A DNA stretch of 33,074 nucleotides from an uncultured Lachnospiraceae bacterium (lineage in GTDB: Bacteria > Bacillota > Clostridia > Lachnospirales > Lachnospiraceae), in assembly GCA_902797025.1 (NCBI GenBank), contig CADBRN010000003.1, positions 1 through 33,074 on the forward strand, read 5' to 3'. Each line of letters starts with the position of its first letter. Position 1 is the first letter of the stretch. Shown one piece after another: positions 3,239-16,719 of this stretch. Made by a program: the position numbers and the translations under genes. The notes beneath the pieces were generated by a model that was not told where the DNA came from, ran no database searches, and was given only the letters and a program-made list of their open reading frames with translations.

Positions 3239-4316
3239 GACGGTCGAGCCGTGAAGATGCTCCGCAGAGGATCGCATCGGCGAGCACGAGCGCGGTCATG
3301 CATTCGACGACGACGCAGGCGCGCGGTACGATGACCGGGTCGTGACGGCCGTGAATTTCGATCCCGCACGGGGTACCGCTCGTATCGACGGTGTTCTGCG
3401 GCCTCGCGATCGAAGGCGTCGGCTTGACGGCCGCCCGAAGAATGATCGTATTGCCGTCGGAGATGCCTCCGAGGATGCCGCCGGCATGATTTGTTCCTGT
3501 TGTGACCGTGCCGTCCTCTTTTCTGATGAACCCGTCATTGTCGTCGGCTCCGGTACTTCGGGATACCGCGAAGCCGTCGCCGATCTCGACGCCTTTTACA
3601 GCTCCGATCGACATGACCGCGCCGGCAAGAGCTGCGTCCAGTTTCCTGAAAACCGGATCGCCGAAACCGGCCGGCATTCCTTTCGCGACACATTCAATGG
3701 TTCCTCCGAGGGAGTTTTTCTCAGCCATCGCCCGGGTGACCAGCTCCGAAGCTCTGGAGGCCGCATCTGCGTCCGGCATACAGAGCGGGTTCCGGAAAAT
3801 TTCTTCCTCGTCAAACGACGTGATCGAGACGGTGCCGATGGATTTTGCATAGGCACGCACAGTTACGCCCAGCGATTCCAGTAGCTTTGCGGCAACGGCG
3901 CCTCCGGCGACGCGGCCGATCGTTTCCCGTCCGGAAGAACGTCCGCCTCCGCGGTAATCACGGATACCATACTTTTCAAAATATCCGAAATCCGCGTGAC
4001 CGGGACGGAACAGATCCTGAATGTTGGAATAGTCCTTTGACCGCTGATCTGTGTTGCGGACGATCATAGAAATCGGTGTGCCGGTTGTCATCCCCTCGAA
4101 CGTTCCGGACAGAATTTCAACGGCATCCGATTCATTGCGGTGTGAGGCATAGCGGCTCTGTCCGGGTTTCCTGCGGTCAAGATATGCCTGAATCTCTTCG
4201 CCGGAGAGCGGAAGGCCTGCGGGACAGCCGTCCACTACGACGCCGATTGCTTTTCCGTGCGACTCGCCCCATGTTGTGATGCGAAACAATTCGCCGAATG
4301 AAGATCCTGCTGCCAT
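3216..4316 (-). CDS. aroC: Chorismate synthase
   Basis: Catalyses the last shikimate step, EPSP to chorismate, using reduced FMN without net redox change; cytosolic. The 366 residues match the usual bacterial length. Family motifs in order are FRITTWGESHGKAIG, RRKPGQSRYASHRNESD, the FMN/substrate segment RPGHADFGYFEKYGIRDYRG followed by GGRSSGRETIGRVAGGAVA, NHAGGILGGISDGN, VKPTPSIARPQNTVD, and GRHDPVIVPRACVVVE. I chose the ATG at 4316 because GGAGGG (4324-4329 on the minus strand) sits 7 nt upstream. An in-frame ATG at 4349 has no such site. It is transcribed away from the divergent membrane-protein gene at 4463. Its 3' end overlaps the convergent gene ending at 3238. No other aromatic pathway gene is nearby. 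Confidence 0.97.
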   Translation of the reverse strand: MAAGSSFGELFRITTWGESHGKAIGVVVDGCPAGLPLSGEEIQAYLDRRKPGQSRYASHRNESDAVEILSGTFEGMTTGTPISMIVRNTDQRSKDYSNIQDLFRPGHADFGYFEKYGIRDYRGGGRSSGRETIGRVAGGAVAAKLLESLGVTVRAYAKSIGTVSITSFDEEEIFRNPLCMPDADAASRASELVTRAMAEKNSLGGTIECVAKGMPAGFGDPVFRKLDAALAGAVMSIGAVKGVEIGDGFAVSRSTGADDNDGFIRKEDGTVTTGTNHAGGILGGISDGNTIILRAAVKPTPSIARPQNTVDTSGTPCGIEIHGRHDPVIVPRACVVVECMTALVLADAILCGASSRLDRLKRLLGR

Positions 4317-4352
4317 AATAAATCCCTCCATATATGATCTTTTTCGCAAAAA

Positions 4353-4381
4353 AGTTTATCATATGCGGACGAACAGTGCAA
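4353..4381 (-). promoter_or_regulatory. Probable aroC promoter
   Basis: On the minus strand TTGCAC (4376-4381), a 17-nt spacer and TAAACT (4353-4358) lie upstream of the aroC ribosome binding site. The -35 is one base and the -10 two bases from consensus. Confidence 0.5.
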
Positions 4382-4402
4382 TTCATTCCGCCGGATACAG
4401 GT

Positions 4403-4432
4403 TTGACAAAATGTATGAGTCTCTACTATAAT
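4403..4432 (+). promoter_or_regulatory. Sigma-A promoter for the rhomboid-like gene and lysA
   Basis: Perfect TTGACA (4403-4408) and TATAAT (4427-4432) with an 18-nt spacer, 30 nt before the start at 4463. It probably drives both the membrane protein and lysA, since no promoter or terminator is visible between them. Confidence 0.85.
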
Positions 4433-4462
4433 CCTTGAAAGAAATACAAAGGGGATTGGGGA

Positions 4463-5386
4463 ATGAAATTTCTGCAGAATCTTGAAAAAAAATTCGGACG
4501 TTATGCCATCCGGCATCTCACGCTCTATATCATCAGTTTTTATGTGATCGGCTACATTCTCTATTATATGCAGTCTGTGAACAATGTTCCGCTCCTCGGG
4601 TATCTGGCGCTGGATCCGGGACTTGTTGCAAGAGGACAGATCTGGAGACTGTTCACATGGGTACTGATTCCGCCGTCCTCCCTGAATATCTGGACGATCG
4701 TCATGCTGATCTGCTACTATCAGCTCGGCACGATGCTGGAGAGAACCTGGGGGGACTTCCTGTACGATTTTTATATCTTTTTCGGGCTGATCATGACCGT
4801 GATCGGTGTGTGCGTGATGTACGCGGTTTCCCCGGAGTTCCGGAATCTGCTCTCGGTTTCGACCGCGGCGGGAGCCTACATCGTGAGCACGTATTACGTC
4901 AGCCTTTCGATCTTTCTTGGATTTGCGATGACTTATCCGGATCAGATCCTGCTCTTTATGTTTATCATTCCGGTAAAGATCAAGTACCTCGCGATTCTTG
5001 ACGTCGCTTATCTCATTTACTCGATCGTCCGAAGCGGAATGCCGGTCGTGACGGCGGTTCTGATCCTGTGCTCGCTCGCAGGTACGATTCTGTTCTTCTT
5101 CCTGAGAAAGAACCCCGGCCGTACAGACCGGAAGCAGAAGAAACGGCAGGAGGAGTTCCGGAGGGCGTTTAATGAAAACCTCCGGGGAAACCGCGCGGAC
5201 CGGAGCAGTGCAGGAGCGGCGGGGAACGGCGCGGACCGTCACACGAAAATTGCGCTTCACCGCTGTGCGGTCTGCGGGCGAACGGAGCTGGACGATCCGA
5301 ATCTGGAATTCCGGTTCTGTTCAAAATGCAAGGGTAATTACGAATACTGCAGCGACCATATCAATAATCATACACATGTTCAGTAA
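4463..5386 (+). CDS. Rhomboid/derlin-like membrane protein with C-terminal zinc ribbon
   Basis: 307 residues with about six membrane helices in the first 210. The loop RGQIWRLFTWVLIPPSS resembles the GQ-WR-T loop of rhomboids and derlins, and WTIVMLICYYQLGTMLERTWG resembles the following helix. The rhomboid catalytic GxSG serine and the late-helix histidine are not visible: the matching region reads VSTAAGAYIVSTYY. It is therefore probably a non-proteolytic relative. Residues 215-255 are a charged, low-complexity linker. The last 45 residues contain CAVCGRTELDDPNLEFRFCS plus KCKGNYEYCSDHINNH, a probable zinc-binding ribbon. Translation starts at ATG 4463 behind a GGGGATTGGGGA purine run. It is followed by lysA after 44 nt. 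Function unknown; a membrane adaptor or chaperone-like role is inference. Confidence 0.7.
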   Translation: MKFLQNLEKKFGRYAIRHLTLYIISFYVIGYILYYMQSVNNVPLLGYLALDPGLVARGQIWRLFTWVLIPPSSLNIWTIVMLICYYQLGTMLERTWGDFLYDFYIFFGLIMTVIGVCVMYAVSPEFRNLLSVSTAAGAYIVSTYYVSLSIFLGFAMTYPDQILLFMFIIPVKIKYLAILDVAYLIYSIVRSGMPVVTAVLILCSLAGTILFFFLRKNPGRTDRKQKKRQEEFRRAFNENLRGNRADRSSAGAAGNGADRHTKIALHRCAVCGRTELDDPNLEFRFCSKCKGNYEYCSDHINNHTHVQ

Positions 5387-5430: not shown

Positions 5431-6708
5431 ATGGGAAAAAAGCCGTTTGTAACAAAAGAGCAGCTCGAAGAGATCACAAAACAGTATCCGACTCCGTTTC
5501 ATCTTTATGATGAGAAGGGAATTCGTGAAAACGCGGAACGGGTAAAAAAAGCGTTTGCCTGGAATCCGGGCTTCCTTGAATATTTTGCCGTGAAGGCGAC
5601 ACCGAATCCGGCGCTGATGAAGATCATGAAGGAATACGGATTCGGCTGCGACTGCTCGTCGATGACCGAACTGATGCTCTCGGAAGCATGCGGGTTTTCA
5701 GGGGATGAGATTATGTTTTCCTCCAACGTCACACCGGCGGAAGAGTACAGCAAAGCGGAGTCGATCGGTGCGATCATCAATCTTGACGATATCACGCACA
5801 TCGATTTTCTCGAGAAAACGATCGGTTTTATCCCGAAAAAGATCAGCTGCCGTTTCAATCCGGGCGGACTGTTTAAACTGAGCAACGGAATCATGGACAA
5901 TCCGGGCGATTCGAAATATGGCATGACAGAAGAGCAGATGTTTGAGGCGTTCCGGATTCTGAAATCGAAGGGGGCGGAGGAGTTCGGTATCCATGCGTTC
6001 CTCGCGAGCAATACGGTTTCCAATGAATACTATCCGCAGCTTGCCGGCATTCTGTTCGATCTGGCAGTCCGGCTACAGAAGGAGACCGGCTGCCACATCA
6101 CATTTATCAATCTTTCCGGCGGCGTCGGGATTCCGTACAAACCGGATCAGGAGCCGAATGATATTCTCGCCATCGGAGAAGGCGTCCGAAAGGTCTATGA
6201 GGAGATTCTTGTTCCTGCCGGCATGGGAGATGTGAGTCTGTGCACGGAGATGGGACGTTTCATGATGGGTCCGTACGGATGCCTCGTCACAAGGGCGATC
6301 CATGAGAAGCACATCTACAAAGAGTATATCGGATGCGACGCCTGTGCGGCAAATCTGATGCGGCCCGCGATGTACGGCGCATACCATCATATCACGGTGA
6401 TGGGCAAGGAGAACGAACCCTGTGATCACAAGTACGATGTGACCGGATCACTCTGTGAGAATAATGATAAATTTGCGATTGACCGTATGCTGCCGAAAAT
6501 TGACATCGGTGATCTGCTTGTAATTCATGATACCGGCGCGCACGGATTTTCGATGGGATACAACTACAACGGACGGCTCTGGTCCTCGGAGCTGCTTCTT
6601 CACACGGACGGGAGCGTCGAGATGATCCGCCGGGCGGAGACCGCGAAAGATTATTTCGCGACGCTTGATTTTACTCCGGAGTATAAAAAAATGTTCGGGG
6701 ATCAGTGA
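5431..6708 (+). CDS. lysA: Diaminopimelate decarboxylase
   Basis: PLP enzyme of the alanine racemase-like fold III group that converts meso-diaminopimelate to lysine plus CO2. The 425 residues fit the family. The PLP lysine is K55 in EYFAVKATPNP. The glycine-rich phosphate loop is LSGGVGIPY, and the EMGRFMMGPYG segment is the usual EPGR block. Near the C terminus GSLCENND carries the catalytic cysteine that completes the active site from the second subunit, followed by DIGDLLVIHDTGAHGFSMGY and NYNGR. Translation starts at ATG 5431 behind AAAGGA. Related decarboxylases (carboxynorspermidine, ornithine/arginine fold III) are possible, but the CENND and GAHGFSM blocks favour LysA. No other lysine gene is nearby. 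A minus-strand tRNA converges on it. Confidence 0.88.
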   Translation: MGKKPFVTKEQLEEITKQYPTPFHLYDEKGIRENAERVKKAFAWNPGFLEYFAVKATPNPALMKIMKEYGFGCDCSSMTELMLSEACGFSGDEIMFSSNVTPAEEYSKAESIGAIINLDDITHIDFLEKTIGFIPKKISCRFNPGGLFKLSNGIMDNPGDSKYGMTEEQMFEAFRILKSKGAEEFGIHAFLASNTVSNEYYPQLAGILFDLAVRLQKETGCHITFINLSGGVGIPYKPDQEPNDILAIGEGVRKVYEEILVPAGMGDVSLCTEMGRFMMGPYGCLVTRAIHEKHIYKEYIGCDACAANLMRPAMYGAYHHITVMGKENEPCDHKYDVTGSLCENNDKFAIDRMLPKIDIGDLLVIHDTGAHGFSMGYNYNGRLWSSELLLHTDGSVEMIRRAETAKDYFATLDFTPEYKKMFGDQ

Positions 6709-6730
6709 CCGGACTGTAATTCCGAATCAA

Positions 6731-6753
6731 CAAAAAAAGCGCCGGAAAGGCGC
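6731..6753 (-). terminator. Terminator of the tRNA-Leu transcript
   Basis: Reading the minus strand, GCGCC (6753-6749), loop TTTCC and GGCGC (6743-6739) are followed by TTTTTTT (6738-6732). There is no T-run on the plus side, so it serves the tRNA and not lysA. Confidence 0.82.
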
Positions 6754-6790
6754 GGACGGGGACGTGTGTCGTTCGACAAAGTCGGAAAAC

Positions 6791-6874
6791 TGCCGGCAGT
6801 GGGGGTCGAACCCACACGCCCGTAGGGGCAACAGATTTTGAGTCTGTCTCGTCTGCCAATTCCGACATGCCGGC
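6791..6874 (-). tRNA. tRNA-Leu (anticodon CAA)
   Basis: 84-nt class II tRNA. The acceptor arm is GCCGGCA paired with TGCCGGC plus discriminator A. The anticodon stem is ACAGA/TCTGT with loop CTCAAAA, giving anticodon CAA, which reads the leucine codon UUG. A long variable arm (GCCC-CTAC-GGGC) and T arm GTGGG-TTCGACC-CCCAC complete the fold. The CCA end is not encoded. It has its own promoter (6887-6915) and terminator (6731-6753) and runs opposite to both neighbours. Confidence 0.97.
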
Positions 6875-6886
6875 ATGAATGTATTT

Positions 6887-6915
6887 ATTTTATCATGCCG
6901 GCATCTTTGGCGCAA
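6887..6915 (-). promoter_or_regulatory. Promoter of tRNA-Leu
   Basis: Minus strand TTGCGC (6910-6915), a 17-nt spacer and TAAAAT (6887-6892), ending 12 nt before the mature tRNA 5' end. It overlaps the first codons of the plus-strand phosphopantetheinyl transferase gene. Confidence 0.72.
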
Positions 6916-7650
6916 GAGGAAACCGATTTGAACGGATTGGAAGTTTTGGACAAATCGATTCCGGTCCGGATCATGCGGAGTAAAGAGGGCAGGCTGTCCG
7001 GAAACCGGGCAGTGCAGGAAACGCTCGGCATGATCCTTGGCGGAGATGTATATCCGGCATGGAAGATCTCGGCGGAGGAGCGGGGAAAGCCATATTTTGC
7101 GGAACACGCGGACGCCGCATTTTCTGTATCAGACAGTGCCGGGTTCACCGCGGTTTGCTTTGACCGGACAAGGATCGGACTCGATCTTCAGGAACACAGA
7201 AGAAGACGGAGTGATACAAGGGACCGGCTTTTCACACGGTGCCGTTCGATCGCTGCGCGGGCATTTCATGAGCAGGAAAATGCCTGTCTGAACGAAGTGT
7301 CTGACACGGATCGGGATGCGTTCATCCGGCGCTTTTTCCGGATCTGGTCCGCGAAGGAAGCGTACGTAAAATACACAGGAGACGGGATCGATGACCGTTT
7401 TTCACGCTTCTCGGTTCTTCCGGGATCCCGGTTGATTTTTTCCGAAAGCGTCCGGTCTGTTTCCGCTACAGGGAAGAGAACGGAACTGACGGAGACCGTT
7501 CCGCTGTTTGAAGAGATCGGAACGACGGCCTGGAATGCGCTGGGAAAATGGTTTTTCTGCGCGGATCTTTATTCTGCAGAGGTAAAACTCAGATTTTCCC
7601 TCTGCATCTGCGCGGACGTGGAAAAACCGGTGATCTTCCGCTCCGGATGA
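6895..7650 (+). CDS. 4'-phosphopantetheinyl transferase superfamily protein (Sfp-like)
   Basis: Transfers the phosphopantetheine arm of CoA to a serine on acyl or peptidyl carrier proteins. Family motifs are present: VSDSAGFTAVCFDRTRIGLDLQE, where GLDLQ holds the magnesium-binding aspartate, and FFRIWSAKEAYVKYTGDGI, the classical WxxKEA helix. Length is 251 residues from ATG 6895, in the Sfp range (about 220-250). The start is uncertain. ATG 6895 has no good ribosome binding site and lies inside the tRNA promoter. Start codons at TTG 6946 or ATG 6973 would give a more typical N terminus beginning near IPVRIM. The segment DTRDRLFTRCRSIAARAFHEQENACLN is an insertion-like helix. The gene is followed by tadA after 10 nt. 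No carrier protein or synthase gene lies in the window, so its target is unknown. Confidence 0.8.
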   Translation: MPASLAQEETDLNGLEVLDKSIPVRIMRSKEGRLSGNRAVQETLGMILGGDVYPAWKISAEERGKPYFAEHADAAFSVSDSAGFTAVCFDRTRIGLDLQEHRRRRSDTRDRLFTRCRSIAARAFHEQENACLNEVSDTDRDAFIRRFFRIWSAKEAYVKYTGDGIDDRFSRFSVLPGSRLIFSESVRSVSATGKRTELTETVPLFEEIGTTAWNALGKWFFCADLYSAEVKLRFSLCICADVEKPVIFRSG

Positions 7651-9519: not shown

Positions 9520-11658
9520 ATGGAAGAAAACAGGACATTTGCAGAGAAATACGATACGAGTTATAAAACCTACTCCATGGAGCTTGCTGGACGGACCCTG
9601 TCTGTCGACATCGGAAGAGTCGGAAAACAGGCAAACGGGTGTGCATTTATGCATTATGGAGACACGACTCTGCTTTGCACGGCGACGGCTTCCGCAAAGC
9701 CGAGAGAGGGAGTTGACTTTTTCCCGCTCTCCGTCGATTATGAAGAAAAATTCTACGCGGTCGGAAGAATCCCGGGAGGCTTCAAGAAGCGCGAGGGAAA
9801 GGCGAGTGATCACGCGATCCTTACTTCCCGTGTGATCGACCGCCCGATGCGTCCGCTCTTTCCGAAGGATTACCGCAACGACGTGACGCTGAACTGCATG
9901 GTGATGTCGGTTGATCCGGAGTGTGCTCCGGAAGTCGTGGCGATGCTCGGAGCATCCATCGCGACTTCGATCTCCGATATCCCCTTTGACGGTCCCTGCG
10001 CCGCGACTCAGATCGGTATGATCGACGGAAAACTGATCATCAACCCGACTGTCGATCAGAACGACAACTCCGATCTGAACCTGACGGTTGCGTCGACCAG
10101 GGACAAGGTGATCATGATCGAAGCAGGCGCCAATGAGATTCCCGAGGCGAAGATGATCGAGGCGATCTATCTCGCAGATGAAGTCAATAAAAAAGTAATC
10201 GCATTCATCGACAAGATTGTCGCAGAGTGCGGAAAACCGAAGCATTCCTATGAGAGCTGCGCGGTTTCCGGGGATCTCTTCGACGCGATCAAAGAGATCG
10301 TTCCGCCGGAAGAGATGGAGAAGGCGGTCTTCACCGATGAGAAACAGGTCCGCGATGAGAATATCCGCAGGATCACGGAGATGCTCGAAGAAAAATTCGC
10401 GGATAACGAGGAGTATCTCGCGATGCTTCCGGATGCGATTTATCAGTACCAGAAAAAGACCGTGCGGAAGATGATTCTGAAAGATCACAAACGCCCGGAC
10501 GGCCGTTCGATCCGCCAGATCCGCCCGCTTGCGGCCGAGGTTGATGTTATCCCGCGTGTTCACGGTTCGGCGATGTTCACCAGAGGACAGACGCAGATCT
10601 GTAATGTCGTCACGCTGGCACCGCTTTCCGACGCACAGCGCATCGACGGACTCGACGAGAATATTACAGAAAAACGGTATATGCATCAGTATAATTTCCC
10701 GTCTTACTCGGTCGGCGAGACAAAGCCGAACAGAGGGCCTGGACGCCGGGAGATCGGACACGGAGCACTGGCGGAGCGTGCACTCATTCCCGTGCTTCCG
10801 TCCACAGAGGAATTCCCGTACGCGATCCGTTCCGTGTCGGAGACCTTTGAGTCGAACGGTTCCACCTCACAGGCATCCGTCTGCGCCTCTTCGATGGCGC
10901 TGATGGCGGCAGGTGTCCCGGTCAAAAAACCGGTCGCGGGCATTTCCTGCGGACTTGTGACGGGGGATACCGATGATGATTACCTGGTGCTGACCGATAT
11001 TCAGGGTCTTGAGGACTTCTTCGGAGATATGGACTTCAAGGTCGCCGGAACGCACGACGGAATCACCGCGATTCAGATGGATATCAAGATTCACGGACTG
11101 ACCCGCCCGATCGTTGAAGAGGCAATCAGCCGCTGCAAGGATGCCCGGGAGTTTATCCTGACCGAGGTCATGGAAAAAGCGATCGCGGCACCCAGAGACA
11201 GCGTCAGCGAATATGCACCGAAGATCATCCAGATTCACATCGATCCGGAAAAGATCGGCGATGTCGTCGGCCAGAGAGGAAAGACGATCAATGAGATCAT
11301 CGCGCGCACGGGTGTCAAGATCGACATCGAAGAGGATGGAAGCGTCAACATCTGCGGAAATGATAAGGCGATGATGGATAAAGCGGTTGAATATATCCAC
11401 ATCATCACAACCGACTTCGAAAAAGGTCAGATCCTGACCGGAAAGGTCGTCAGCATCAAAGAGTTCGGCGCATTCCTCGAATTTGCTCCCGGTAAAGAGG
11501 GAATGGTCCATATCTCCAAGATTGCCAGGGAGAGGATCGAGCATGTCGAGGACGTTCTTACACTGGGCGATGTCGTCAAGGTCATCTGCCTCGGAAAAGA
11601 CCGCCTCGGACGCGTGAGCTTCAGCATCAAAGATCTTCCGAAGGATGAGCGAAACTGA
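9520..11658 (+). CDS. pnp: Polyribonucleotide nucleotidyltransferase (PNPase)
   Basis: Phosphorolytic 3'-5' exoribonuclease and RNA-tailing enzyme. The 712 residues hold all five family domains: a first RNase PH domain (about 15-145), the linking helical domain (about 240-325), and a second catalytic RNase PH domain with [45 protein letters not shown] and [17 protein letters not shown] domain around [20 protein letters not shown] and a C-terminal S1 domain beginning [20 protein letters not shown] follow. Start ATG 9520 is behind GAGGA. The TGA stop overlaps the ATG of the dUTPase gene (TGATG), so the two are translationally coupled. Identity secure. Confidence 0.98.
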
Positions 11659-12089
11659 TGGAAACGATCCGCATTCAATATCTGAATGACCAGATTGAAC
11701 GTCTGCGCTATATCGGAGGAAAATCCGACTGGATCGACCTCCGGTCAGCGGAAGATGTTTCGCTGAAAAAAGGAGAATTTCATCTGATTCCCCTCGGTGT
11801 GGCGATGAAGCTGCCGGAAGGATACGAGGCGCACATCGTGCCGAGGAGCAGTACCTTCAAAAATTTCGGGATCATTCAGACAAACCACATGGGCGTGATC
11901 GATGAGTCGTACTCCGGGCCGAATGACTGGTGGTTTATGCCGGTGATCGCAATGCGCGATACAGTGATCCGCTTTAACGACCGGATCTGCCAGTTCCGTC
12001 TGATGCGTCATCAGCCGGAGATTCGTTTTGAAGAGGGAACTCTTTCAGGCGAAGACCGCGGGGGCTTCGGATCAACAGGAAAACAGTGA
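11658..12089 (+). CDS. dut: dUTP diphosphatase-like protein
   Basis: Hydrolyses dUTP to dUMP and pyrophosphate, keeping uracil out of DNA and feeding dTMP synthesis. The 143 residues are the usual trimeric dUTPase length. Five motifs are visible in order: [13 protein letters not shown] (motif 1), [11 protein letters not shown] (motif 2), [20 protein letters not shown] (motif 3), RICQFRLM (motif 4), and the C-terminal lid RGGFGSTGK (motif 5). Motif 3 differs from the common DxDYxGE form, reading [11 protein letters not shown], so substrate preference (dUTP against dCTP) should be treated with care. It overlaps the pnp stop by one base and is followed by a strong terminator, so it is the last gene of the pnp unit. 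Confidence 0.88.
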
Positions 12090-12097
12090 AATACGAA

Positions 12098-12137
12098 TCC
12101 GTTCCGACCGGGTATTCCGGTTCGGGACGGATTTTTT
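12098..12137 (+). terminator. Terminator after pnp-dut
   Basis: TCCGTTCCGACCGG (12098-12111) pairs with CCGGTTCGGGACGGA (12117-12131), with small bulges, around loop GTATT. TTTTTT follows at 12132-12137. It ends the pnp-dut transcript in the 180-nt gap before the GTPase gene. Confidence 0.85.
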
Positions 12138-12211: not shown

Positions 12212-12240
12212 TTGCCGGGGCAGGAATGCTCTGTTAGAAT
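12212..12240 (+). promoter_or_regulatory. Promoter of the GTPase-NYN fusion gene
   Basis: TTGCCG (12212-12217), a 17-nt spacer and TAGAAT (12235-12240), 29 nt before the start at 12270 and downstream of the terminator at 12137. Confidence 0.65.
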
Positions 12241-12269: not shown

Positions 12270-15113
12270 ATGAAAAGCAATCGCATCGTACTCGGTATTC
12301 TCGCTCATGTTGACGCAGGGAAGACGACTTTATCAGAAGGAATACTATATAAGACGGGAACGATCCGGAATGCGGGCAGGGTGGACAGCGGCGACGCGTT
12401 CCTAGATACGTTCGCGCTCGAGAAAAAACGCGGAATCACGATCTTTTCCAAACAGGCGGAATTCGTGTACGGCGGACGGAACTACACGCTGCTCGATACG
12501 CCGGGACATGTCGATTTTTCTCCGGAGATGGAGCGGACGCTTCAGGTACTCGATGCGGCCATCCTCGTCATCAGTGCTCCATCCGGAATCAACGCGCAGG
12601 TGCGGACGCTCTGGAAACTGCTTTCTCATTATGAAGTGCCGGTATTTCTGTTCGTGAATAAGATGGATCAGCCGGGGACGGACCGTCTCCGTATCCTGGA
12701 AGAGATCACAGAAGAATTCAGTGACTGCTGCATCGATTTTTCGGAGGGAATCGATTCCGCAAAGACACAGGAGCAGATCGCGATGACGGATGAGGAGGTC
12801 CTTGACCGGTATCTCGCGGGCGTGACGATCGGCAGGGACGCGGCGGCTTCGCTGATCCGAAGTCGAAAGCTCTTCCCGGTCTATTTCGGGGCAGCGCTCC
12901 GACTGAAGGGGATCGATGCGCTGCTCCACGGACTGGCTGAGTATCTGTGCGAAAACGAATGTCCGGATTTATTCGGAGCGCGGGTCTTCAAGATTTCAAG
13001 AGATCCTCAGGGAAACCGCCTGACGTGGATCCGTATGACGGGCGGTCAGCTGCGCGTCAAGGAGGCGGTCGGAGAAAAAGAAAAGATCGATCAGATCCGC
13101 GTTTACTCGGGAGATTCGTATGAACTGAGAAAGGAAGCCCGGGCGGGCGAGATCTGTGCGCTCACGGGGCTTACCGCCACAAGGCCGGGGATGGGGATCG
13201 GAAACGAGAAAAACAACACCTGGCGGCTGCTCGCTCCGGTTCTTCGAAGCACGGTGACGGCGAAAGACGGATCGGATCCGCGGGCCGTTCAGAAAGCGAT
13301 CCGGACGCTCGGTGAGGAAGAACCGATGCTGCAGGCTCAGATTGATGATGAGACCGGAACGGTCAGCATCGGCGTTATGGGACAGGTTCAGACCGAGGTT
13401 CTGCATCAGGTGCTGCTTGACCGCTTCGGCATCGACGCGGCGTTCGGACCCGGGATGATCCAGTACAAAGAAACGATCGCGGAGCCGGTCGAAGGCGTCG
13501 GTCACTTCGAACCGCTTCGTCACTATGCGGAAGTGCATCTTCTGATGGAGCCGGGAGAGCCGGGAAGCGGGATCGTGATCCGGAGCCGCTGCAGCACGGA
13601 TCTGCTGGCAGAGAACTGGCAGCGTCTGATCCTTTCTCATCTCACCGAAAAGAAATTCCGGGGCGTTCTCACCGGATCTGAGATTACCGATATGAAGATC
13701 ACCCTGATCGGAGGCCGCGCCCATGAAAAGCATACGGAGGGCGGAGATTTCCGTCAGGCGACGTATCGGGCGGTTCGTCAGGGATTGATGATGGCGAAGA
13801 TGCGCCTCCTTGAACCGGTCTGCTCCTTTCGGATGAGGATACCTCAAGAAACGATCGGCCGTGCGCTCAATGATCTCACGCAGATGGAAGCAGAGTTTGA
13901 TCCTCCGATGGTGATCGGAAGCGAAGCGGAAATTACAGGAAAGGTGCCCGCCTCCGGAATCGGCGATTACCAGATCACGCTGACGTCCTATACCTCCGGA
14001 CGGGGTGAAATCCAGACGGCTCTGCTCGGATATTTTCCATGCCACGATGCCGAAAGGGTGATCGCGGAGGCGGCCTATGAGCCGGACCGCGATACGGCAA
14101 ATCCCTCTTCCTCTATATTCTGTTCGCACGGTGCAGGAGTTCTGATTCCCTGGGATCAGGTCCGTGATATGATGCACGTCGATACCGGATGGAGGCCGGG
14201 ACTGCGTCTGTCGGAAGACGGATGGGTTCGGGACGCTTCGGAAATCCGTTCGGATTTTGACCTGGATGAATCGGGGGACGCGCTTCTCTCGGCGGAATCA
14301 GTCCGGGAGAAGCGCAGAGAAAAAGACGAATCACGGATGACCTTCAAAGAGCGCGAGAGACTTCGCGGCGCCGCGGAGCAGGAGCTGAAGGAAATTTTTG
14401 AGCGGACGTACGGGACAGTCCGCGACCGGAACGGAAAGGAATCCGCGACGCTGGACCGCCATATGGATGAGTCTGCGCTTTATGATCAGCAGTGGCGGGA
14501 TTATCAGAGCCGTGACCGGTCGGACCAGAATGCAAGAAAGAAAAAAGAAGTGAAGAACGGGAAACATGCGGCAAATCATCCCTTGAAGCGATATCTTCTC
14601 GTGGACGGGTACAATATCCTGTTCGCGTGGGACGATTTAAGGGCGCTCGCCGCGAAAAATATCGATTCGGCAAGAGATGCCCTGACTGACCGGATGTCGG
14701 AATTCCAGGGAGCATCTCCGGATCTCACCGTAATCCTCGTATACGATGCATATAAGGTGCGCGGCCGCGGACGAAGCATCGTCCGCACCGGCGGGATCCG
14801 CGTCGTGTACACGAAAGAGGCGGAGACGGCCGACGCATATATCGAGAAGACGGTCCATGAAATTGCGGGTGATCATCAGGTGCTTGTCGCGACATCCGAC
14901 GGATTGGAACAGACGATCATCCTCGGAGAGGGGGCGGCGAGAATTTCCGCAAGAGAGCTCCTCGCGATGACAGAGCGGGCAAGAGATGAAGTACGCGAGC
15001 GATCCGCTGATGTGGGGAGCGGCGGAGCGGCACTCACACGGTTTATGGATCATGCGCCGGATGAGGTGAAGGCGGCGCTTCAGGATCGTGAAGCACTTCC
15101 CGGAAAGAAATGA
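12270..15113 (+). CDS. TetM/EF-G-like translational GTPase fused to a YacP/Rae1-like NYN ribonuclease domain
   Basis: 947 residues in two parts. Residues 1 to about 670 follow the EF-G/TetM plan: G1 AHVDAGKTT, G2 RGITI, G3 DTPGH, G4 NKMD and G5 FGAAL, then the beta-barrel domain, domain III, domain IV and an EF-G C-terminal domain with TSYTSGRGEIQTALLGYFPC, like the TetM tail. A charged linker follows (about 675-770). Residues 773-947 match B. subtilis YacP (Rae1): LLVDGYNILFAW, VILVYDAYKVRG, YTKEAETADAYIEK, VLVATSDGLEQ and ARELL. Acidic residues D779, D826, D855 and D877 are placed for metal-dependent cleavage. TetM-type proteins eject drugs from the A site, while Rae1 is a known ribosomal A-site endonuclease. 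A ribosome-entering GTPase carrying an mRNA cutter is therefore inferred. It has its own promoter, and a TetR gene follows. Tetracycline resistance itself cannot be concluded. Confidence 0.88.
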   Translation: MKSNRIVLGILAHVDAGKTTLSEGILYKTGTIRNAGRVDSGDAFLDTFALEKKRGITIFSKQAEFVYGGRNYTLLDTPGHVDFSPEMERTLQVLDAAILVISAPSGINAQVRTLWKLLSHYEVPVFLFVNKMDQPGTDRLRILEEITEEFSDCCIDFSEGIDSAKTQEQIAMTDEEVLDRYLAGVTIGRDAAASLIRSRKLFPVYFGAALRLKGIDALLHGLAEYLCENECPDLFGARVFKISRDPQGNRLTWIRMTGGQLRVKEAVGEKEKIDQIRVYSGDSYELRKEARAGEICALTGLTATRPGMGIGNEKNNTWRLLAPVLRSTVTAKDGSDPRAVQKAIRTLGEEEPMLQAQIDDETGTVSIGVMGQVQTEVLHQVLLDRFGIDAAFGPGMIQYKETIAEPVEGVGHFEPLRHYAEVHLLMEPGEPGSGIVIRSRCSTDLLAENWQRLILSHLTEKKFRGVLTGSEITDMKITLIGGRAHEKHTEGGDFRQATYRAVRQGLMMAKMRLLEPVCSFRMRIPQETIGRALNDLTQMEAEFDPPMVIGSEAEITGKVPASGIGDYQITLTSYTSGRGEIQTALLGYFPCHDAERVIAEAAYEPDRDTANPSSSIFCSHGAGVLIPWDQVRDMMHVDTGWRPGLRLSEDGWVRDASEIRSDFDLDESGDALLSAESVREKRREKDESRMTFKERERLRGAAEQELKEIFERTYGTVRDRNGKESATLDRHMDESALYDQQWRDYQSRDRSDQNARKKKEVKNGKHAANHPLKRYLLVDGYNILFAWDDLRALAAKNIDSARDALTDRMSEFQGASPDLTVILVYDAYKVRGRGRSIVRTGGIRVVYTKEAETADAYIEKTVHEIAGDHQVLVATSDGLEQTIILGEGAARISARELLAMTERARDEVRERSADVGSGGAALTRFMDHAPDEVKAALQDREALPGKK

Positions 15114-15150
15114 GCCGGACGGGACGGATTTTACAGAGAGGTGGATTACA

Positions 15151-15672
15151 TTGGCAGATTCCAATATTACAAAAAATGCGCTTGCAAATTCAATGAAGGC
15201 ACTGATGAAGGAAAAGCCATTTGATAAAATCAGCGTTATCGATATCTGCCGCGGATGCGGGATGAACCGCAAGAGTTTTTATTACCATTTTAAAGACAAA
15301 TATGATCTGGTGAACTGGATCTTTTACATGGATTTCATCCTGTACATCGGACACGCCGAGTACAACGACGGGTGGGATCTTCTCACGGTCGTCGCGAAGC
15401 TGTTTTACCGTGATCAGGAGTTTTACCGCGCCGCGTTCCGGATTGAGGGGCAGAACTCGTTCCGCGAGTATTTCTGCGAATCGATGATCCCCATCGTCTC
15501 CTTCTTCATCGAAGAGCAGGGAGACGATGACGATGACCGGAAAATCCTGGTCGCCTCGTTCTGCGACGCCTATCTTGCAGTTCTTGAACGGTGGCTGATC
15601 AGCGGCTGCACCATCTCACCGGAGGAATATATACGAAAGATCCGAAAAATGTTCCGGATGATCGCAAAATGA
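15151..15672 (+). CDS. TetR/AcrR-family transcriptional regulator
   Basis: 173 residues. The N-terminal helix-turn-helix reads TKNALANSMKALMKEKPFDK, ISVIDICRGCGMNRKSFYYH and FKDKYDLVNWIF, the TetR signature. The C-terminal domain (from about residue 70) is of the DhaS-like type (TetR_C_7/8) seen in many Firmicutes; ligand unknown. I chose TTG 15151 because GAGAGGTGG (15136-15144) is well spaced before it and the protein then starts MADSNITKNALANSMK, as in relatives. A longer form from ATG 15088 would overlap the GTPase gene end. It lies 37 nt after the GTPase-NYN gene and is probably co-transcribed with it. It converges with the radical-SAM-like gene, with 12 nt between them. Targets unknown; the inverted repeat at 16802-16825 is a candidate. 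Confidence 0.9.
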   Translation: MADSNITKNALANSMKALMKEKPFDKISVIDICRGCGMNRKSFYYHFKDKYDLVNWIFYMDFILYIGHAEYNDGWDLLTVVAKLFYRDQEFYRAAFRIEGQNSFREYFCESMIPIVSFFIEEQGDDDDDRKILVASFCDAYLAVLERWLISGCTISPEEYIRKIRKMFRMIAK

Positions 15673-15684
15673 GACAGAACCGGT

Positions 15685-16719
15685 TTATTCTGAATCCACC
15701 GGAAGCGCGACGGACAGGATCTGTTCGAGGGAAAATGTGTGACGGCATTCTATGACAGTATCATCCGTTGTGAGAATGTTCCCGTCACCGAGCATTTCGA
15801 TGTAGATGTCGTTTCTGCTGTCCGTGATGATACGGCCGATCTGCATCACATCGAAGCGCTGTTCGAAAATAATGAAAGGATACTTCGGCTCGGTACGAAG
15901 GCGTTTGACAAAACGGCTCATTTTTTCGCACGTCTTTTTCGAACAGTTTTCATCCGGGGCCACGATGACGAATGATCCGCTGTAGGGAAGAAACTCTTCC
16001 GCGCGGCTCCCTTCCGTCCACTGGAGCAGCGTGTCGTCTCCGTAAAAATCATACAGGCCGAACAGGGATTTCTGCTGTTTCATCTTTTTGACATTCTCCG
16101 CGGTGGAGTCCTTCGCTGCCTGGAACAGGAACAGTGTATTTCTGCATTTTTTTATGATGGACAGCTGCTCAGGAGAAAGATGCCCCTCCGGAAGCAGGCA
16201 GATGAATGCAGAATCCGGATGCTCTGCGAACATCAGAAGCAGCTGATCGACTGCCTGCATGGTGCCGCCGCAGCGGATCAGGTACGTGTAGATCCCGAGG
16301 TCATTGCCCTGGCTGACGATATGACTCATATCTGCGGCGTCGATGCTCAGAGGTTCGGACGGATCCGTGCGAATAACGATGCACCACGGAATGTTGAACG
16401 GTTTTTTGCCGTCGAGTCCCCGGATCACCTTCCCGCCGAATGTGAGAGAATTGTAGCCGATGTTGATGCCGAATTCTTTGATGTTCGTCCGGCTGGTGTT
16501 TCGGAGAAGGTTCCGGATCGCCGTGTAGTACGGGCTGTCGTCATTTTTAAGAAGATCCTGGAGCATCTCGTAGATTTCATCAAGAAATCGTCCCGTCGCA
16601 AAATTTCTTCCCATATCGGTCAGCTTCCGGATGCTTCGGTTCGGATCCTCATCGATCTCCCGGAGACTCCGGTCAACGGTCGCGTCGATAATTGCACGTG
16701 TAATTTTATTTGGTTTCAT
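15685..16719 (-). CDS. Radical SAM-like protein lacking the FeS cysteines (probable pseudoenzyme)
   Basis: 344 residues, no close family that I can name with certainty. The order of segments resembles a Clostridial radical SAM family as I remember it. A helical N-terminal region (IIDATVDRSLREIDEDPNRS) is followed by FNIPWCIVI, where relatives have NxPWAILMDPTxxCNLxCxxC, then SHIVSQGNDLGIYTYLIRCG, matching the strand and helix before GGEP. AEHPDSAFICLLPEG matches EKHxDxxFLxFTNG, and near the end DSRNDIYIEMLGDGNI matches the usual INxNGDVEPC stretch. The CxxxCxxC motif is missing, replaced by a shorter RTDPSEPLS, and GGEP reads GGTM. No iron-sulfur chemistry is expected if this reading is right. 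AGGAG precedes the ATG at 16719, and a promoter is visible at 16773-16801. It converges with the TetR gene. It could instead be an unrelated hypothetical protein. Confidence 0.5.
   Translation of the reverse strand: MKPNKITRAIIDATVDRSLREIDEDPNRSIRKLTDMGRNFATGRFLDEIYEMLQDLLKNDDSPYYTAIRNLLRNTSRTNIKEFGINIGYNSLTFGGKVIRGLDGKKPFNIPWCIVIRTDPSEPLSIDAADMSHIVSQGNDLGIYTYLIRCGGTMQAVDQLLLMFAEHPDSAFICLLPEGHLSPEQLSIIKKCRNTLFLFQAAKDSTAENVKKMKQQKSLFGLYDFYGDDTLLQWTEGSRAEEFLPYSGSFVIVAPDENCSKKTCEKMSRFVKRLRTEPKYPFIIFEQRFDVMQIGRIITDSRNDIYIEMLGDGNILTTDDTVIECRHTFSLEQILSVALPVDSE

Follow-up and report, generated by a model that had tools for sequence, protein, structure and literature searches.

A Tet-like translational GTPase fused to a Rae1 (YacP)-type nuclease domain in Lachnospiraceae and other Clostridia

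The fused gene and its surroundings

The window analysed here is a stretch of 33,074 nucleotides from an uncultured Lachnospiraceae bacterium (GenBank assembly GCA_902797025.1, contig CADBRN010000003.1). An uninterrupted open reading frame on its forward strand, running from the ATG at 12270 to the stop at 15113, encodes a protein of 947 residues (P0001) made up of a Tet/EF-G-type translational GTPase, a linker and a YacP/Rae1 NYN nuclease domain; the parts of the gene, the upstream sites and the downstream ORF described below lie on the same strand. The complete GTPase spans residues 1–640. Its G domain (residues 6–226; 12285–12947) matched Pfam GTP_EFTU at 2.2e-50 and contains the P-loop, RGIT, DTPGH (with H80), NKMD and a G5-like motif. 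EF-G domain 2 scored slightly under the Pfam cut-off (22.7 vs 27), and Pfam matches were obtained for domain III (EFG_III, residues 323–393; 13236–13448), domain IV (EFG_IV, residues 396–510; 13455–13799) and domain V (EFG_C, residues 512–593; 13803–14048). Domain IV bears the subfamily signature GHFEPLRHYAEVHL...KHTEGGDF in alignments, and its tip loop (residues 483–494, RAHEKHTEGGDF; 13716–13751) occupies the place of TetM loop III (Y506–V510). The GTPase closes with a conserved C-terminal extension (residues 594–640; 14049–14189), which unfused homologues have too; after it come a flexible linker (residues 641–773; 14190–14588) and the NYN_YacP domain (residues 776–912; 14595–15005), which scored 143 bits against a curated cut-off of 24.6 (9.4e-42). 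When the sequences of solved structures were searched, residues 6–591 matched TetO, TetM and EF-G (best 255 bits), and the structures closest to the C-terminal tail were those of B. subtilis YacP/Rae1 (5mq8/5mq9, 1.8e-24). An earlier, sequence-only reading of this DNA had described a TetM/EF-G-like GTPase fused to a Rae1-like nuclease; the reading frame, the Pfam domains and the solved relatives all bear this out, and the three models it had suggested for a domain search (GTP_EFTU, EFG_C and NYN_YacP) were all matched.

Its account of the GTPase motifs and NYN acidic residues likewise agrees with their conservation. Catalytic H80 of the G domain, together with K18, T57, D76, N130, K131 and D133, is kept in 61 of the 61 aligned fused sequences that reach those positions. 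In the nuclease, D779, D826, D855 and D877 are kept in all 63 fused and all 29 stand-alone sequences, and they align to Rae1 D7, D53, D81 and D104, the latter numbering being counted from the alignment. The catalytic residues presumably lie among these four. E852, in the ETAD-type motif, is Glu in 47/63 fused sequences and Gln in 16/63 (Gln in 1/29 stand-alone sequences).

AlphaFold2 modelled both halves of the fused protein mostly at pLDDT above 90, with linker segments 664–676, 717–738 and 762–769 below 50 and a pTM of 0.67, so that the relative position of the halves is not fixed by the model. Judging by their titles, the 50 Foldseek matches listed were all EF-G or proteins related to it. 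Of the structure that the earlier reading had asked to see predicted, the fold search backs the EF-G half; no NYN structure was among the 50 matches listed, and the NYN assignment is therefore made from sequence. Folding the NYN tail alone from its single sequence gave a poor model (pLDDT 48), on which nothing here is based.

The linker is long, variable and largely of low confidence. It does contain a short conserved element, ELKEIFERTYG (residues 705–715; 14382–14414). Of the 162 distinct linkers, 152 have it in a relaxed form, against a mean of 1.1 after shuffling, a count that is partly post hoc since the pattern was loosened after its misses had been looked at. Stricter earlier patterns were found in 74 of 181 loci and in 101 of the 162 distinct linkers.

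Upstream, a hairpin followed by a T run (12095–12136) is the likely terminator of a dUTPase-like gene. Behind it lies a weakly evidenced promoter-like site (TTGCCG-17-TAGAAT, with a TG before the -10; 12212–12240), the one forward-strand match with an extended -10. An own promoter, as the earlier reading had it, is plausible given this site and its position, but scarcely firmer than that, the region yielding 5 such sites against 1.5 expected by chance. A riboswitch or attenuator was considered and rejected: the sole gathering-level Rfam match in the window was a tRNA at 6791–6874, read as tRNA-Leu by ARAGORN, and no Rfam leader was found upstream of the fused gene. Downstream lies the TetR-family regulator already noticed in that reading (15088–15672; best NCBIfam model DhaS, 120 of 129 bits). 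Its suggested meaning, a stress- or drug-induced system, was not borne out, as among the 48 further fused loci surveyed just 1 has a relative of this ORF directly downstream. Neighbours were clustered for 49 fused loci, the window included (50 were taken, and L157 was left out for want of a fused frame that met the filter). A conserved partner, TetR or other, was rejected, since the biggest shared cluster occurred in 8 of the 49 loci at scattered positions.

Distribution, loss of free rae1 and origin

Fused and separate halves were surveyed in 120 genomes of the Lachnospiraceae, in 148 genomes across the class and in a sample of the order. NYN_YacP occurred in 108 of the 120 family genomes, fused in 99 and stand-alone in 9. 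The 99 comprise 97 with one long frame (judged by frame length and contig), one with two overlapping frames (G062) and one inferred over a contig break (G114). None of the family genomes was seen to combine the fusion with a complete stand-alone copy; a second NYN fragment of 140 bits at a contig end in G059 was not classable, and G096 had one of 22 bits. Across the class, 53 of the 98 NYN_YacP-bearing genomes have the fused form; in none of these 53 did any above-cut-off NYN match lie elsewhere than in a fused frame, and in G442 the fusion is present twice. Two of the genomes that were counted as fused, G014 and G392, have partial NYN matches only (1–80 and 1–75 of 166). A survey across Clostridia, which the earlier reading had also proposed, thus finds the fusion to be common and the separate halves to occur as well. 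Unfused GTPase copies were seen in 7 class genomes, 4 of them without NYN, so that the unfused GTPase has no need of Rae1. In counts uncorrected for relatedness, the separate halves are found together more often than chance predicts in the family and order samples, and the class sample shows no such excess. Inside the fused group, split forms were seen only as overlapping-frame cases (G062, G266, G363 and L110) that may be sequencing errors. The fusion is no oddity. It is usually the only Rae1 of its genome, and in many gut Clostridia Rae1 has no other form. Its function is dispensable, given that 12 of the 120 family genomes are without both halves.

The main point, which the sequence-only reading had overlooked, is that the fused protein is the sole Rae1 found in its genome and that rae1 is gone from its usual place. 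A profile search of the window's own genome gave one NYN_YacP match, that of the fused protein. The slot between rlmB and sigH is the usual location of rae1 rather than a functional requirement; in this genome just 14 bases, and no rae1, separate rlmB (4214–5311) from a SigH-like ORF (3615–4199), and the fused gene sits on another contig. Among 30 genomes whose rlmB locus was examined, none of the 24 with the fusion had a rae1 match beside rlmB, and in 16 of these 24 sigH begins 5–162 bases after rlmB. One genome, G289, the only one noted with both forms, has the fusion and an intact rae1 between rlmB and sigH. Another species of the same genus (G172) has the fusion and a rae1 with stops and a deletion in that interval, and one from another family (G143) has the fusion and a 28-residue rae1 remnant between the two genes. 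Free rae1 is absent or decayed where the fusion is present, and this suggests that the fused protein took over from free Rae1. Such replacement is correlative, the relics showing redundancy and not mechanism.

In a quick tree the 63 fused GTPases formed one clade (SH-aLRT 100), from which a single evolutionary origin is deduced, although FastTree gave the branch between them and the nearest unfused sequence a support of only 0.39. The NYN domain is short, and its free tree places some stand-alone sequences among the fused ones (4 changes); a tree constrained to keep all fused sequences in one group had the better score and was not rejected (p 0.88). Wholesale horizontal transfer was partly supported only: in quick trees the fused clades of the own family and of f2 were not rejected, and the two f46 sequences were (AU p 0.033). 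In two same-genus pairs of fused loci, no nucleotide similarity was found past the gene except a 39-base match (one flank in the case of G289). Carriage as plasmid cargo was rejected: of the 1062 plasmid records with a match, only 2 have one place that covers 80% or more of the query. Two plasmid records with the fusion were inspected, of which one is named tetracycline resistance and the other is not. The C. difficile "plasmid" records with NYN matches, of which one out of 12 was inspected, look like chromosomal sequence. A phage collection gave NYN matches in 12 records, and the one inspected is unannotated.

Known relatives and competing explanations

Like Rae1 of B. subtilis, a NYN/PIN-like ribosome-associated endoribonuclease, the fused form has an NYN_YacP domain in which the acidic residues are the same, and this is usually the only copy in the genome; unlike it, this domain trails a translational GTPase of 640 residues and is encoded away from the rlmB–sigH region. 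With elongation factor G the protein shares its fold, and the EF-G tip His aligns with H485, but it forms a separate subfamily; a protein encoded elsewhere in the own genome (G000:C53) passes the NCBIfam cut-off of one EF-G model. With the Tet(M)/Tet(O)-type ribosomal protection proteins, its closest solved sequences, it shares the EF-G-like domain plan. It reaches about half of the score that the Tet model needs, does not keep TetM loop III and has its own tip signature (KHTEGGDF), C-terminal extension, linker and nuclease. The same architecture was reported first by Atkinson 2015 (PMC4342817), who noted a YacP-like NYN domain on the Tet proteins of ten clostridial species in one untested remark, with a resistance hypothesis. 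The earlier description of the fusion as uncharacterised holds for experiments, as far as the literature was searched, but the architecture itself was already in print. New relative to that report are the distribution, the single origin, the loss of free rae1 and the relics.

The hypothesis of Atkinson 2015, echoed in some database names, makes the protein a Tet ribosomal protection protein that has acquired an RNase. TetO and TetM are indeed the best solved matches, tet_protect is the best NCBIfam model (429 bits), and an Agathobacter rectalis fusion is annotated as TetM/TetW/TetO/TetS family. These 429 bits fall far short of the cut-off of 775, however, and the fused protein lies under every Tet cut-off, while three Tet controls pass (832, 864 and 874). 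Six further homologues, two fused and four unfused, scored 381–439 bits on tet_protect, and the Tet-like L302 also fails, at 453. The TetM tip loop, too, is replaced: the residues aligned to Y506–V510 (YYSPV) read AHEKH, and the position of TetM Pro509 is Lys in 63/63 fused sequences. Loop III of domain IV has a described role in TetM (PMC4750697, PMC8161019); even so, TetM S508A P509A V510A can be active (PMC4750697), and an altered loop alone does not exclude function. The GTPase orthologue occurs in 104 of the 120 family genomes, unlike an acquired trait, and no Rfam leader precedes the gene. Moreover, 13 genomes with the fusion contain further matches of Tet-like length and 31–34% identity, three of which were checked as Tet. 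On the strength of the scores, the tip loop, the distribution and the coexisting tet genes, we regard tetracycline resistance as improbable. The scores, the tip loop, the coexisting tet genes and the unconserved TetR neighbour likewise leave the drug-induced or drug-resistance side of the sequence-only reading unsupported.

It is conceivable, if rather unlikely, that the two halves work separately, the fusion coupling their expression or holding the nuclease close to ribosomes, and GTP playing no part in a hand-off. The long, variable, mostly low-confidence linker and the occurrence of unfused GTPase and stand-alone Rae1 apart in other genomes would fit such an arrangement; one fusion event followed by broad retention, the linker element kept in most linkers (by the partly post hoc pattern) and the confinement of splits to overlapping frames, perhaps sequencing errors, speak against it. 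We consider it very improbable that the NYN part processes rRNA or tRNA and that the GTPase works in ribosome assembly. A part in rRNA/tRNA maturation was the original proposal for NYN/YacP domains (cited in PMC4342817), and rlmB, close to which free rae1 is located, encodes an rRNA methyltransferase, but the NYN tail finds its closest solved structures in B. subtilis Rae1, which is reported as a translation-dependent mRNA endonuclease.

Proposed role and significance

Our favoured reading, which we judge probable, is that the fused protein is the only Rae1 found in its genome, fixed to a Tet-like translational GTPase acting at paused or stalled ribosomes. Tet/EF-G factors and Rae1 have both been placed at the A site (PMC6613710, PMC12320835, PMC8161019), where Rae1 cuts mRNA (PMC6613710, PMC12320835), and the two halves therefore probably act in turn by means of the flexible linker. 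The GTPase half would bind the factor site of a paused or stalled ribosome, with domain IV toward the decoding centre, and would clear or probe the A site; the tethered NYN domain would then enter the A site and cut the mRNA, and this cut could start decay of the message and rescue of that ribosome. We infer ribosome binding, the order of events, a GTP-timed hand-off and mRNA as the putative substrate. The A-site, mRNA-cutting proposal of the earlier reading is kept as a working hypothesis, shorn of drug-blocked ribosomes. A more ambitious version, which we hold tentatively and with more doubt than belief, is that of a self-delivering surveillance nuclease, whose GTPase picks paused ribosomes, clears the A site and hands over by GTP hydrolysis to the tethered nuclease, and which, having arisen a single time, spread among Clostridia in part through horizontal transfer and displaced free Rae1 where it arrived, with decaying rae1 still present in some genera.

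For resistome surveys, it matters that a gene present in the majority of the genomes sampled from a very common family of the gut is named tetracycline resistance in some public records, yet the members tested fail the Tet-family models despite such names. How Rae1 chooses its ribosomes is, to our knowledge, an open question, and a lineage in which Rae1 is built into a translational GTPase makes its recruitment directly testable. If the proposed role is true, the fusion would give bacteria an example of a single polypeptide that joins a GTPase to an mRNA nuclease acting on stalled ribosomes.

Domain architecture of the fused protein

An uninterrupted open reading frame (ORF) of 947 aa, at 12270-15113 of the window, joins an EF-G/Tet-type GTPase to a Rae1 (YacP) nuclease tail. 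The domain plan proposed from the sequence was borne out by Pfam, since GTP_EFTU, EFG_III, EFG_IV, EFG_C and NYN_YacP all scored above their curated cut-offs in this one frame; EF-G domain 2 reached 22.7 bits (cut-off 27). The E-values of the two main domains (2e-50 and 9e-42) rule out chance. In sequence searches against solved structures, residues 6-591 matched TetO (255 bits) and TetM (252 bits), as well as EF-G, and the tail matched both B. subtilis YacP/Rae1 entries (E 1.8e-24). An AlphaFold2 model built on a 56-sequence alignment (mean pLDDT 86.6) had well-formed GTPase and nuclease halves, with pLDDT below 50 at linker segments 664-676, 717-738 and 762-769. The 50 Foldseek matches listed were, by their titles, EF-G or its relatives and included no NYN structure, so that the nuclease half gained no independent support from the fold search.

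The linker itself is variable, with a median length of 84 across 181 loci. With a relaxed pattern, a short element, E-[LIV]-x-x-I-[hydrophobic], was recovered from 152 of the 162 distinct linkers (shuffled mean 1.1); it was not found in the unfused GTPases displayed, whose ends fall short of it. This element might serve as a docking site for the nuclease or for a ribosomal protein.

Two neighboring ORFs were also noted in the window. A dUTPase-like ORF (11658-12089) lies directly after pnp and scored 68 bits against the NCBIfam dut cut-off of 102.55. Downstream of the TetR gene and opposite to it, a 344-aa ORF (15685-16719, minus strand) matched nothing in Pfam or NCBIfam at an E-value of 0.001.

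Relationship to tetracycline-resistance proteins

The sequence-only reading had allowed for drug-blocked ribosomes and a drug-induced system, and this side of it was not supported: by the Tet family's own models, placing the fused protein outside that resistance family is defensible. A fused Agathobacter rectalis protein (L303, NZ_CP143948.1, 4989-7790) scored 389 bits, and an unfused homologue carried by a plasmid of Ligilactobacillus salivarius (L305, NZ_CP114507.1, 4995-6914) 381 bits, against an NCBIfam Tet cut-off of 775. Public annotation calls the former TetM/TetW/TetO/TetS tetracycline resistance despite its score below the cut-off, and the latter likewise. The plasmid gene, near rpsN and an ArsR-type regulator gene, also places the unfused subfamily outside Clostridia, in a lactobacillus and on large plasmids.

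Domain IV is the best-conserved region, and its signature is common to fused and unfused members but absent from TetM and EF-G. In an ungapped alignment, TetM Y506 Y507 S508 P509 V510 corresponds to A484 H485 E486 K487 H488 of the fused protein, with H485 aligned to the EF-G tip histidine. K487 was kept in 63/63 fused and 22/24 unfused rows, and H485 in 62/63 and 24/24. TetM Pro509 is described as sitting in the drug site (PMC8161019), and loop III as functionally the most important (PMC4750697). The changed tip loop is nevertheless only suggestive as an argument against a Tet function, because a TetM triple mutant, S508A P509A V510A, can according to the latter source be active. A Tet-like GTPase in genome G088 (L302, 522-2453; 453 bits, below the Tet cut-off) has a tip loop of a third kind; this genome also carries a stand-alone Rae1.

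Distribution of fused and separate forms

In the window's own genome, the single NYN_YacP match is the fused gene. Among 120 genomes of the family, the GTPase orthologue occurred in 104 (of 105 matches reported, G088 was left out as Tet-like only) and NYN_YacP in 108, with neither half in 12. Both lay in one long frame in 97 of the 108, as judged from frame length and contig; G062 had two overlapping frames, G114 a gene broken across contig ends, and nine a stand-alone NYN frame (174-260 aa), five with an unfused GTPase (stop-broken in G118) and four without a GTPase. Further NYN fragments were seen in G059 (contig end, 140 bits, not classable) and G096 (22 bits).

Among 148 genomes of the class, the GTPase subfamily occurred in 61: 52 fused, one with adjacent overlapping frames (G363), one at a contig edge (G440), three with both halves apart and four without NYN. 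NYN_YacP was present in 98, fused in 53 and alone in 45; in G014 and G392, counted as fused, the NYN match spans only about half of the profile. Another genome, G442, has two fused copies (C16, C48). Among the matches listed for 196 genomes of the order, NYN occurred in 163 and the GTPase in 88, the latter fused or adjacent in 64, unfused in 22 (21 with a stand-alone NYN) and without an NYN match in two (G205, near a contig end, and G292), a split read from match list, genome table and frame lengths combined. A scan of named genomes confirmed at least 595 stretches. The best 80, ranked by similarity to the window and hence biased toward fused forms, included 77 with both sequences in one frame (for L140 and L161, GTPase sequence is itself spread over two), one with overlapping frames and two stopping at a contig edge. 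Among the record titles were Butyrivibrio, Roseburia, Eisenbergiella, Oscillibacter, Dysosmobacter, Anaerovorax odorimutans and a Vallitaleaceae MAG.

Origin and spread of the fusion

The GTPase tree held 63 fused, 24 unfused and four Tet-like rows selected among the loci examined. In a quick tree, all fused GTPases lay on one side of a branch (SH-aLRT 100), with one state change. With FastTree, the unfused G178 copy was the nearest outside row, with a support of only 0.39 for the branch that separates it from the fused rows. In the NYN-domain tree, a single fused clade was not rejected. Some horizontal spread is likely, because a clade of the two f46 rows was rejected (p 0.033) and because genomes G289 and G143 share 71% identity in the fusion (truncated at a contig end in G289) versus 59% in CysS, 61% in RlmB and 51% in SigH. 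Vertical inheritance may nevertheless account for much of the spread, since the own-family clade was not rejected.

Loss of the free rae1 gene

An annotated C. difficile record has the gene order cysS, a ribonuclease III-domain gene, thyX, rlmB, NYN and sigH. Twelve C. difficile "plasmid" records had a Rae1 match; the one examined (L306, NZ_CP149721.1) contains the cysS-rlmB-NYN-sigH-tuf-secE-nusG-rplK region of the chromosome and seems to be a chromosome piece. In the family sample, seven of nine stand-alone rae1 genes were about 1 kb or less from rlmB.

G289 has cysS, then other genes, then rlmB, followed by a small ORF, rae1 and sigH, with CysS, RlmB and SigH all above NCBIfam cut-offs. The window's genome (L269) has the same cysS/rlmB/sigma-gene order: a CysS match (ORF 5721-7127, 58% to that of G289), RlmB (4214-5311; 241 bits, cut-off 160) and a sigma factor resembling SigH (3615-4199; 168.6 bits, short of its cut-off of 208). 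Here rae1 is absent between rlmB and the sigma gene, which are 14 bases apart. Among 30 genomes compared at rlmB, none of the 24 fused ones had a match to G289's Rae1 beside it (E 1e-3). A sigH match followed rlmB by 5 to 162 bases in 16, and none was found in the stretch examined in the other eight, two of which end soon after rlmB. The six non-fused genomes comprised two with stand-alone rae1 beside rlmB, one with it elsewhere and three without NYN.

The most telling comparison is between G289 and G172, two genomes of one genus that each have the fusion. In G289, rae1 (177 aa) is still intact in the operon; in G172, the same interval holds a rae1 relic that is interrupted by in-frame stops and has lost an internal segment, and 16 kb around it align piecewise at 73-87%. 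The listed contamination of G289 is 5%, but synteny points to a native origin of its rae1. In G143, which belongs to another family, the fusion occurs together with a 28-residue rae1 remnant between rlmB and sigH. From this pair and this remnant, free rae1 looks expendable once the fusion is present, in two lineages (three genomes).

Meaning for clostridial Rae1

The sequence-only reading had called the fusion uncharacterized. No experimental study of it was among the results listed from the full-text literature searched, which covers few subscription papers, but the fusion has been in print since it was first noted by Atkinson in 2015 (PMC4342817), so at the level of sequence it has a precedent. 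In the proposed mechanism, one A site would be used in sequence, by the GTPase half first and the nuclease half second; GTP hydrolysis may be coupled to cutting. The fused protein is real, widespread and assembled from known parts. What can defensibly be called new is its recognition as a form of Rae1 that is common in Clostridia and has supplanted free Rae1 in many genomes.
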